From the NCBI RefSeq assembly GCF_011398355.1, contig NZ_AP021889.1, positions 2,356,001 through 2,420,000 on the forward strand: a stretch of DNA of 64,000 nt, given 5' to 3'. Made by a program: the position numbers and the translations under genes. The DNA comes from Thiosulfatimonas sediminis (GTDB lineage: Bacteria; Pseudomonadota; Gammaproteobacteria; Thiomicrospirales; Thiomicrospiraceae). Shown in pieces: positions 27,100 through 31,299 of this stretch. Within the stretch, counting starts at the first letter, position 1, and every line of letters begins with the position of its first letter. The notes below the pieces were generated by a model. It was not told the DNA's origin and did not search any database. It was given only the letters and a program-made list of their open reading frames with translations.

Positions 27100-30000
27100 A
27101 TGAAAAGACGCGCAACCGACATCCTCGACCTTTACTATCAACAAGTCTCTGGGATTATTCTCGCCCGACAAAATCCGCTGACCGGCTTATTGCCTGCCAG
27201 TACCGCCATCACCGCGCACGGCGACTACACCGATGCGTGGGTGCGTGATAATGTCTATAGTATTCTCGCTGCGTGGGGATTAGGCCTAGCCTATCGACGC
27301 ATTGACGACACCCAAGGGCGTGCCATTTTGCTCGAACAGAGCGTGGTGAAGCTGATGCGCGGCCTACTCGTGGCAATGATGAAACAAGCCAATAAGGTTG
27401 AAGCCTTTAAATATTCACAAAATCCATTGGACGCGTTGCACGCCAAGTACGCGACCGATAGTGGCGACCCTGTTGTCGGCGATGACGAGTGGGGCCACTT
27501 ACAACTGGACGCGACCAGTCTATTTTTACTCATGCTAGCGCAGATGAGCGCCTCGGGATTGCGCATCATCTTCTCGATGGATGAGGTGCATTTCATTCAA
27601 AATTTAGTCCATTACATTGGCCGCGCCTATCGCACTCCGGATTATGGCATCTGGGAACGTGGTAATAAAATCAATCACGGCATTGCCGAAGTCAACAGCA
27701 GTTCGGTCGGCATGGCGAAAGCCGCTTTAGAAGCGATGGATGGCTTTAACTGTTTTGGTTCCGAAGGCGGCATTGACAGTGTCATTCATGTTGTACCAGA
27801 CGAAATCGCACGTGCGCGGATTACCTTAGAGGCCGCTTTACCCTCGGAATCCCTTTCCAAAGAGGTCGATGCGGCAACCTTAAGTATTATTGGCTTTCCA
27901 GCGTTTGCGGTTGAAGATAGCGCACTGGTCGAACAAACCCTAGACGAAGTGGTGACAAAACTCGCCGGCCGCTATGGTTGCAAACGTTTTTTACGCGATG
28001 GCCATCAAGCCGCCAATGAAGATCACAACCGCTTGCACTATGAACCGGAGGAGATGAAACAGTTTGAACATATCGAATGCGAATGGCCGCTGTTTTTTAC
28101 CTATCTCTTACTGCACTATCTCTTTACCGACCAAAAAACGCTGGCCAGTGAATATCGCACCAAACTAGAAGCATTTTTGGTCGAACAAAACGGTCAACAA
28201 TTGCTGCCGGAACTCTATTATGTACCGTTAGACAAAATTCCGGCCGAGCGGGCCAATCCCGGCTCACAAGATCGGCTGCCCAACGAAAACGTGCCATTGG
28301 TATGGGCACAGAGTTTATTTATTTTGGGCTGCCTAGTACAAGACGGTTTATTGGATGTTTCCGATATTGATCCTTTAAATCGCCACCGCAACATTGGCAA
28401 AACCCTTGGTAAGCAAATTCAATTTACCTTAATTGCTGAAAACGAAGCCGTGCAGGACAAACTGCACGAATATGGGCTTATCACTCAAACCTTAGCGCAG
28501 GTTAAGCCGATGCAGGTGCTGCAAGCCAGTAGCCTGGCGGATGCGTTTGAATGGCTTGGGCGCTCCGAACGCCTTAAATTAAGTGGCCGTCCACACCGTA
28601 ATCCACGGGGTTTGGCGACCTCTTGTGTGTATGAATACCAAGGCAATCGTTTTATTTTCCAGCCGCAATTTTTGAATAAACACGATTTTTATCTCACCTT
28701 AGATAACCGTATGTTGGTGCGTCGCTTGAAAATGGAGATGGGCTACATCTATCGCGAATGGAATCTTCCTGGTCGCCCTCTAGTGGTTTTGGTAGTCAAC
28801 CAAGCGATGCTGCACAAGGGAGGCAGCCGCGCCCTATTGGAGTTTATGGAAGAGTGCCGTCACGGCGGCTTTGGCGAAGTGCCGGTAAAGCTCGGTTCAC
28901 TCAAAGATTTTATTCCAACCAGCACCAAACGCAGCCTGCATTATTTGGCGCAAGCACCACAAGAAAATTCCGCACAACCCTTACAAACGCGAACCCATCT
29001 GGTCTTACAGCCCACGGATGAATCCAGCGATGCACATTTAAACAGTACTTTATGCCGCGATTGGAGCGACAGTGCATTAATGGCGCAGTTAATTCATTCC
29101 GGTAACCTGCGCGATGAATTTACCATTTTGCAAATTTTGATTCTGCGTCACGGTTTGGATTTCACCACGGCTCTGCGCGATATAAACGGCGATGCCTGTT
29201 CGTTACGCAAATTGATGGAAGAAGTCTATCTGTATGCAGGCGAACATAATGACTGGCAAATAACGCGCTTAGCAGCCGCGCTATTGAGCAAGCACGACAT
29301 TAATTTGGAAGGCGCGCTGACCGAAATTTTAGTCCGCAAAATCGCCTTAAGTGTGTCACGTCAATACAGCAAACACTCCACTTTCCGCCAACCGGTCGGT
29401 GCGGAAGAGATCTTACGCGTGATTCATCAATTTAACGCCGATGATTTACGCGCCAAGATTCTCACTCAAGAACTGATTCTAAATTTAGGATTAATGATTC
29501 GTTCGCGCCCAGAACTGCTCAGCAACATGAAAATAATCCGCACAGGACAACTGTTGCAACTGCTGGCTGGACATATTCGTTATGCCGAAACGGATTATTC
29601 GGCAGACGATGCGCTGGATTTATTAATGCGCAAATCGCCATTTGAGTTTGCCAAAGCACTAAATTATGTTTTAGAAAATTATCTTGGGGTACAAGAAGAA
29701 CTTTATCAACGCGAGCTGATGCGCTTTGACCACCAAGAAGGTGAATTGTATCTGCCACGCTTTGAATCGGCGATGAATCCAGAATTAGGACCCGCCGATA
29801 ATTGGCATCACTGGCGCCAAATTAACGGCGCGATTGGCCGCTATTCCAACGATTTTTATGAGGGCGTGTGGGACGTCGTCAATCAATCCGCAGGCTTGGT
29901 TATTGGTGACCAATGGAACCCTAAACGCCGTCTGGACAATGCCCTCAGCGCAAACATGACCCGCGGTGAAAAGCTTTTTCAAGACAAAGTTGACCACTTG

Positions 30001-30288
30001 CTCAACAAAAACCCGGTACCGGAAGTACGTCGTTTATATTACGAAGCTTTAATGGTGCTCGGCACGATTATGCAAATTAACCCAAGTATGCATACTGCAG
30101 ATTCGATTTATTTAGATGTGCTTCTCGGCCATGCCGTCCGCTTGCGTTGGTTAGCTCAGGAAGGCAACCAGATGCAAGCTTACGATGCGCAACGCGAACA
30201 AGCATGGCAAGATTTTTACTTATCAGCCCCGCATGAAGTGGCCAATGCCATTATTGATGGATTCGGTTTTTTACATAAACAAAACTAA
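27100..30288 (+). CDS. Bacterial homologue of phosphorylase kinase alpha/beta subunit (GH15 glucoamylase-like)
   Basis: A 1062-residue cytoplasmic protein with strong likeness to animal phosphorylase kinase alpha subunit, by recalled motifs. The N-terminal (alpha/alpha)6 glucoamylase-like domain contains [21 protein letters not shown] (46-66), [13 protein letters not shown] (78-90), [16 protein letters not shown] (125-140), IWERG (184-188), [14 protein letters not shown] (199-212) and [10 protein letters not shown] (326-335). The likeness continues through [11 protein letters not shown] (495-505), [12 protein letters not shown] (739-750), [19 protein letters not shown] (789-807) and [20 protein letters not shown] (905-924). 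It ends FLHKQN, so there is no CaaX farnesylation box. Whether it hydrolyses glucan or regulates a partner cannot be read from sequence. The 15-bp gap to glucokinase suggests a role in glycogen or starch use. Confidence 0.88.
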   Translation: [1062 protein letters not shown]

Positions 30289-30303
30289 TTTGGAGAATCT
30301 GGC

Positions 30304-31299
30304 ATGGCATATATCCTCGCCGGTGATATTGGCGGCACAAAAACCGTTTTGGCTGTTTACCAAACCGATGGCAAACAGCTCATCGAAGTCCGCAAGCAGA
30401 CTTTTGCCAGTGGCACCCATTTAATATTTAACGACCTATTGCAAGAGTTTACCGGGACCGAACTCGTTCTTTCTGGCGCTGCTTTTGGGATTGCTGGGCC
30501 AATTAAAAATCAAAAATGCATCACCACCAATCTTCCTTGGACGATAGATGCAACAGAAATCAGTGAATTGCTCGGCACTCAAAATGTCCGGCTGTTAAAT
30601 GATTTGGAAGCCGCAGCCTATGGCGTTTTACAGTTAACTGATTTCCATGAACTCAATCCTGATGGGGTAATCCAAACAGGCCATATCGCAGTGATTGCCG
30701 CCGGGACGGGCTTGGGTGAGGCCATTCTTTTTTTCGATGGAGTGCATCATCACGCCATGCCAAGCGAAGGTGGTCACTGTGAATTTGCACCGCAAAATGA
30801 ATTAGAAGATCAGTTACTGAAGTTCTTAAGAGAACGCTTTAATGGACATGTCAGCATGGAGAGGATTCTATCGGGGGATGGTTTTGGCAATCTGTATGAT
30901 TTTTTAAAAAGCATCCATTACGCACCAGTCAATCCGCAGTTAGAGACACAAATGGCACAAACCGACCGCAATGCGCTCATTAGTCAAATGGGCATGAACA
31001 AAGAAGATGTCCTATGCGCTAAAGCGATGCAACTATTTTGCCGGATTTACGGCGCAGAAGCCGGAAATTTAGCCCTCAAAACGCTACCACTCGGTGGGAT
31101 TTATATTGCCGGTGGCATTGCCCCAAAAATATTGCCGGCACTGCAATCAGGCGCATTCATGGAGGGCTTTTTAGATAAAGGGCGAATGAAGCATGCAATT
31201 GAAAAAATGCCAATCCGAGTTGTCGATAATCCGGAAGCACCCCTGTTGGGCGCGGCCTACTGTGCACATAAACTGTTACAACAGACCTATGAGCGATAA
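30304..31299 (+). CDS. glk: Glucokinase
   Basis: Glk phosphorylates glucose with ATP to glucose-6-phosphate in the cytoplasm. The 331-residue protein is of the proteobacterial type: GDIGGTKT phosphate-binding loop (7-14), FGIAGPI, LNDLEAAAYG (the catalytic aspartate region), AAGTGLGEA, and MPSEGGHCEFAP. The C-terminal part has GGIYIAGGIAPK. It starts 15 bp after the phosphorylase-kinase-like gene with TTTGGAG upstream, so the pair is probably one operon. It converges on tcdA with only 22 bp between stops. Confidence 0.95.
   Translation: MAYILAGDIGGTKTVLAVYQTDGKQLIEVRKQTFASGTHLIFNDLLQEFTGTELVLSGAAFGIAGPIKNQKCITTNLPWTIDATEISELLGTQNVRLLNDLEAAAYGVLQLTDFHELNPDGVIQTGHIAVIAAGTGLGEAILFFDGVHHHAMPSEGGHCEFAPQNELEDQLLKFLRERFNGHVSMERILSGDGFGNLYDFLKSIHYAPVNPQLETQMAQTDRNALISQMGMNKEDVLCAKAMQLFCRIYGAEAGNLALKTLPLGGIYIAGGIAPKILPALQSGAFMEGFLDKGRMKHAIEKMPIRVVDNPEAPLLGAAYCAHKLLQQTYER

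Follow-up and report, generated by a model that had tools for sequence, protein, structure and literature searches.

We focus here on a pair of genes in a 64,000-nucleotide stretch of the Thiosulfatimonas sediminis genome (NZ_AP021889.1, positions 2,356,001 to 2,420,000; hereafter the window). The first encodes a 1062-residue homologue of the alpha and beta subunits of animal phosphorylase kinase (PhK), and the second is glk, the gene for glucokinase (Glk). Our reading, which we regard as probable, is that the PhK-like protein is a cytosolic, probably anomer-inverting alpha-glucan exo-hydrolase of the glycoside hydrolase family 15 (GH15) type, in other words a glucoamylase-like enzyme with the PhK alpha/beta architecture, and that it feeds Glk; its activity and substrate are inferred. 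Phosphorolysis of glycogen stops at short chains and branch stubs. In the proposed scheme, the pocket of the N-terminal domain D1 (Y43, W47, R49 and D50, with E186 as acid and E371 as base) would release glucose one unit at a time from non-reducing ends, either of glycogen itself or of maltodextrins derived from it. The co-encoded Glk would convert the released glucose to glucose 6-phosphate, with carbon flowing out of the glucan. By analogy with the PhK scaffold, the C-terminal domains would probably serve to form oligomers or to bind glycogen.

The glucoamylase-like domains of PhK are reportedly treated in a 2003 Protein Science paper. Their physiological significance is said still to need investigation in a 2024 paper on the human structure (PMC10978961). 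The role of these domains becomes testable with a bacterial protein whose D1 is 60% identical to that of human alpha, whose GH15 pocket motif is complete and whose partner gene encodes an enzyme that uses glucose. The sequence of this protein suggests that it is still a sugar-cutting enzyme, unlike the tested human version. It also indicates a route, alongside phosphorolysis, by which glycogen-derived glucan would be hydrolysed and the glucose passed to glucokinase in these bacteria.

Relation to human PhK and the active site

The full-length homology to PhK alpha and beta claimed in the original prediction is confirmed: the protein is colinear with human alpha (E 6.6e-224) and beta (3e-167), and a phmmer search against PDB sequences (E up to 1) returned only human PHKA1, in three stretches, and PHKB, in two, along its length. 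Identity in D1, taken over aligned columns, is 60.4% with PHKA1 and 47.7% with PHKB. The Pfam scan matches GH15 (PF00723) at residues 9-816 (2.3e-83) and KPBB_C (PF19292) at 830-1061 (1.4e-74), the latter a highly significant match beyond the N-terminal domain, to which the similarity might, by the prediction's own account, have been confined. Both domains are matched in 30 of the 30 members of this protein family that were scanned; no NCBIfam model scores above its cut-off for the window protein. The genome, a single contig of 2,722,826 bases, has one KPBB_C match, and its sole GH15 match is the same protein, as it is in each of the 10 PhK-carrying genomes of the genus.

The likeness to PHKA1 comprises an identical domain order and the correspondence of human E185 and E371 to E186 and E371; the architecture is also common to PHKB, which differs in having Lys at the base position and changes at the positions of Y43, W47 and R49. 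With respect to alpha, the window protein has no counterpart of about 103 and about 47 residues of unaligned alpha sequence, keeps an HGDY loop with the subsite −1 Tyr, and has neither a CaaX end nor a Pkinase match near its gene. The absence of a gamma kinase beside the gene, noted at the outset, stands: Pkinase (PF00069) is matched at just two places in the genome, C1:1719963 and C1:252067, both well away from the window (C1:2356001-2420000). The protein is best read as something other than a subunit of a kinase holoenzyme, because these matches are distant, the alpha-specific stretches are missing, the Cys at −4 of a CaaX farnesylation motif occurs in 0/32 bacterial rows of our alignment (11 from the taxonomic family and 21 others, all rows kept), and a QISVR-like motif, the mark of a Ser14-type phosphorylation site, is seen near the GlgP N-terminus in 0/10 glycogen loci read (the ORF start in L118 is uncertain).

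E186 and E371 are invariant in all 32 rows, their equivalence to Glu185 and Glu371 being counted along the human alignment. With these two residues human alpha D1 "appears to possess an intact active site", and human beta is without some catalytic residues (PMC10978961). A profile comparison made without human PhK, pitting the bacterial profile against five cytosolic GH15 proteins (probability 79.5, E 1.5e-5), sets PDYGIWE on PDAGIWE and closes with E371 opposite E563, which is invariant in those five; with one secreted GH15 protein (L142) as the profile partner instead, no meaningful alignment resulted. The proposal that E186 occupies a catalytic position is supported by its alignment with both human Glu185 and the GH15 acid. 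The second catalytic site had been sought at E327/E329; these glutamates are really E326 and E328 (in ECEW) and are invariant, yet the base by alignment is E371.

Y43, W47, R49 and D50 are likewise invariant in 32/32 rows, and the motif that they form, Y-x3-W-x-R-D, is found in 23/23 non-PhK GH15 proteins extracted from 24 phylum-search loci (L146 left out; further matches of that search lie outside this sample). In a study of dextran dextrinase, a GH15-like enzyme, Tyr535 and Trp540 lie in a hydrophobic patch of subsite −1, Arg542 and Asp543 bind the sugar, the subsite −1 residues are conserved between this enzyme and GH15, and the conserved Asp of the nucleophilic-water network is Asp333 in glucodextranase and Asp344 in bacterial glucoamylase (PMC12446779). 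Counted along the printed alignment, the motif ends at Asp333 in 1UG9 and at Asp344 in 1LF6. The likeness to these GH15 enzymes covers the acid and base glutamates and the motif; the window protein differs in its extra C-terminal domains and, by motif comparison, in an Asn at a conserved Ala. A D1-only model (pLDDT 54, pTM 0.62) was not used for active-site geometry; with this low-confidence model, Foldseek found 8 PDB chains at E<=0.001, all of them PhK alpha or beta, and no GH15 enzyme at that threshold.

Across the 32 rows, 118/430 positions of D1 are invariant, against 6/190 in residues 431-620, 0/40 in 621-660, 3/169 in 661-829 and 8/233 in 830-1062; pooling the second, fourth and fifth of these stretches gives 17/592. 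Invariance is concentrated in D1, and the pattern is that expected of an enzyme with a fast-evolving scaffold. When one alpha and one beta sequence, both human, are compared, alpha keeps W-V-R-D, has Gln at the place of Tyr43 and is missing H40 and G41, with a Tyr six before the Trp as a possible partial stand-in, and beta is changed at all three of the Tyr, Trp and Arg positions. Among the 118 invariant D1 positions, 15 are changed in alpha and 34 in beta, with eight changed in both (40, 43, 302, 303, 395, 397, 400 and 403), an overlap whose P of 0.03 is weak. These common losses fit the 'ancestral' status suggested earlier for the bacterial protein. We can only tentatively go further and propose that the bacterial PhK-like proteins, as still active glucan hydrolases, may represent the ancestors of the eukaryotic PhK regulatory subunits, in which case the HGDY loop of subsite −1 together with H302, Q303, N395 and N397 would have been lost before the alpha/beta split, and a glucokinase-coupled hydrolase would have become a scaffold that responds to sugar. 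If true, this would explain why human alpha is inactive despite its two glutamates, and also the binding of acarbose by PhK. A tree including human alpha and beta was discarded, the two long branches joining and rooting being impossible.

Glucokinase and the glycogen genes

The start of glk lies 15 bp past the stop of the PhK-like ORF, the spacing first reported, with GGAG at 30292-30295. Glk scores 320.6 bits against PF02685 (cut-off 22.1) and 250.5 against TIGR00749 (cut-off 225.45). That glk should accompany the PhK-like gene in relatives holds without exception in the family, where it is directly downstream on the same strand in 11/11 genomes, and in part outside it, where glk is directly downstream in 6/21 loci (L043, L044, L051, L053, L054 and L050, which is cut by a contig end). 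Within the family the pair is found in different chromosomal settings: with uvrA and the ThiF-family gene in the window and L016, and in others in L012/L039, L013, L014, L015/L038/L040, L041 and L042. Outside it, one further locus of the 21 (L056) has a divergent distant glk homologue, and in three glycogen genes adjoin the PhK-like gene, namely malQ-, glgX- and glgB-like genes in L059 and glgB- and glgX-like genes in L061 and L062, as labelled by eye from N-termini. The PhK-like type at these three loci, all from other proteobacteria, is more diverged (KPBB_C 8.3e-26 to 2.8e-30). The PhK-linked glk proteins form one clade, with weak support (80/70), apart from those of the glycogen operon (100/99). 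The groups inside the PhK-linked clade branch in an order broadly like that of the PhK tree.

Among the 32 genomes of the genus, glgA, glgP and malQ are common to the same 24. The PhK-like gene occurs in 10/24 glgA-positive versus 0/8 glgA-negative genomes (one-sided Fisher 0.03; in this and the following Fisher test the genomes are related, and so not independent). The eight glgA-negative genomes (G001, G006, G010, G012, G017, G023, G028 and G029), five of which are less than 90% complete, have no match to glgA, glgP, malQ, KPBB_C or full-length glk, and apparently lack the whole glycogen system. All 10 PhK carriers keep glgC-GH57-malQ-glgB-glgA-glgP, the genes being assigned by eye and from their resemblance to a single reference operon (L101 was read for G003). 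Full-length glk is present in 13 of the 14 glgA-positive genomes without PhK, the exception being G004 (520 contigs), and lies in the glycogen operon in 11 of them, read gene by gene, and by coordinates also in G002 and G007. In the 10 carriers, by contrast, operonic glk is intact in G003 only (L101), a remnant in G008 and not found in eight. It seems that the PhK-glk pair took the place of operonic glk, because 9/10 PhK carriers versus 1/14 glycogen-positive non-carriers are without an intact operonic copy (Fisher 7e-5). The remnant in G008 (L119, 13080-13346) consists of 88 residues similar to operonic glucokinase. The glycogen operon next to it is retained and the genome carries the PhK-glk pair, so that this is perhaps a replacement caught midway.

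Both MalQ and a glucoamylase yield free glucose, requiring Glk. A role for the PhK-like protein as MalQ replacement was rejected, malQ being present in all 24 glgA-positive genomes, and so was one as replacement for a GH13 debranching enzyme, as GH13 matches, judged by eye, do not clearly sort with PhK. The glycogen operon at L111 and other loci encodes a GH57-like protein and no evident GlgX.

Weighing the alternatives

The original prediction left the choice between a glucan hydrolase and a glucan-sensing regulator; the hydrolase is better supported and the sensor less so, because constraint lies in D1, no residue is missing from the catalytic pair or the subsite −1 motif, and the glucose expected as product is the substrate of the partner gene's enzyme. 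As a non-catalytic sensor or scaffold, the protein would bind maltodextrin or glucose through D1 and regulate Glk, GlgP or the glycogen granule, in the way that the gamma kinase is controlled by the large subunits of PhK. We consider this unlikely: the joint retention of GH15 and KPBB_C in all members scanned would suit it, as would the glk linkage, which fits a regulator of Glk equally well, but the constraint is not in the C-terminal domains, the two Pkinase matches are remote from the window, and the GlgP proteins read are without the QISVR-like motif. A GH15 hydrolase acting on a different glucoside, for instance trehalose, isomaltose or kojibiose, would still feed Glk. Trehalases and isomaltose hydrolases do belong to GH15 (PMC12446779), an archaeal trehalase model weakly matches 24/30 members (23 bits for the window protein against a cut-off of 820), and genus genomes have GH13 matches besides GlgB; such a specificity is nevertheless improbable in our judgement, given that within the genus PhK is confined to glycogen-gene-positive genomes and that three relatives adjoin glgB/glgX/malQ-like genes. 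That the PhK-like protein is a dispensable passenger, with glk selected for MalQ-made glucose, we regard as very improbable. Full-length glk does occur in 23/24 glgA-positive genus genomes, with or without PhK; against this, the PhK-like ORF is full length (1062-1109 residues) in 11 family genomes, its D1 is 85-90% identical to that of the window in five aligned relatives, and gene and glk are kept together at different sites.

Several points weigh against the glucoamylase-like reading that we favour. In the human structure paper, no activity of PhK alpha on maltose, isomaltose or glycogen was detected (PMC10978961), and as alpha has both glutamates, this also speaks for a sensor. A 30-member profile searched against the PDB (E up to 10) found only human PHKA1 and PHKB and no solved GH15 enzyme. 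In the GH15-like dextran dextrinase the Tyr stands five before the Trp, so that the spacing of the motif is not absolute (PMC12446779). N397 is an Asn where inverting GH15 enzymes have the conserved Ala of region S5, in a by-eye comparison of P-L-x-W-A stretches for a site beyond the end of the GH15 profile alignment and at which the contact described is a main-chain one (PMC12446779). The full-length AlphaFold2 model, built from six close sequences, was discarded (pLDDT 40, pTM 0.30). Neither glk nor glycogen genes lie beside the PhK-like gene in 9/21 outside loci; two more (L052 and L055), near a contig end, have undecidable neighbourhoods. Finally, malQ occurs in the same 24 genomes as glgA and could alone account for glk; the PhK-glk link therefore rests on pairing and not on need.

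Distribution and layout of the locus

KPBB_C is matched in 11/58 relatives, comprising 10/32 genus genomes and G033 of another genus in the family, in 16/370 genomes of the class and in 8/397 of the phylum, five of these being weaker (E 8.5e-24 to 2.8e-30); these counts take in the genome of the window. Three Thiomicrorhabdus genomes and two metagenome-assembled genomes of Thiotrichales are the named relatives, with identities of 76-80%. A plasmid search gave only two weak Escherichia coli matches (24-27% identity over 21-29% of the query), and a search of viral contigs gave no match to the PhK-like protein. Among 14 control genomes only Synechococcus elongatus matches KPBB_C, so that its protein has this Pfam domain in common with the window protein.

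A bacterial PhK homologue as such is already known: Pfam has the family and S. elongatus matches it, which makes the window protein less novel than first claimed. What is new is the invariance of E186 and E371, the retention of Y-x3-W-x-R-D in all 32 rows while human alpha is without the Tyr, and the glk pairing with its pattern of apparent operonic-glk replacement. Among the papers listed by our literature searches, which left most subscription papers uncovered and so do not prove absence, none describes an assay of a full-length PhK-like protein from bacteria or mentions that its gene is paired with glk; 'phosphorylase kinase' and 'glucokinase' are absent from the first 300,000 of the 445,374 characters of a 2024 review of prokaryotic alpha-glucan enzymes. 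The abstract of a Synechococcus WH8102 proteome study names 'glycogen phosphorylase kinase' and its body text at that point says glgP; the name may mean another protein and is given no weight (PMC6716455).

Features of the PhK-like gene and glk, in window coordinates
Feature	Position	Strand	Basis or size
PhK alpha/beta-like GH15 protein	27100..30288	+	1062 aa ORF
Domain D1, GH15-like, residues 1-430	27100..28389	+	conservation across bacterial rows; low-confidence D1 model
11-residue stretch, residues 40-50, with GH15 subsite −1 motif Y43-x3-W47-x-R49-D50	27217..27249	+	
E186, general acid by alignment (= human alpha Glu185)	27655..27657	+	
E371, general base by alignment (= human alpha Glu371; human beta Lys)	28210..28212	+	
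KPBB_C domain, residues 830-1061	29587..30282	+	PF19292 1.4e-74
glk, glucokinase, 331 aa	30304..31299	+	PF02685 E 1.2e-95; TIGR00749 above cut-off

Promoter- and terminator-like sites at the locus are no more frequent than in shuffled sequence. The 5′ neighbour of the PhK-like gene is uvrA (24032-26839, +), at a gap of 260 bp, and 3′ of glk, on the opposite strand, are genes for a ThiF-family protein and a TatD-family DNase, with ribosomal-protein-operon-like genes, recognised by eye, beyond them. In a genome of a different family (G332, L047), TatD-like and ThiF-like genes again lie close to a PhK-like gene, which is there unaccompanied by glk.

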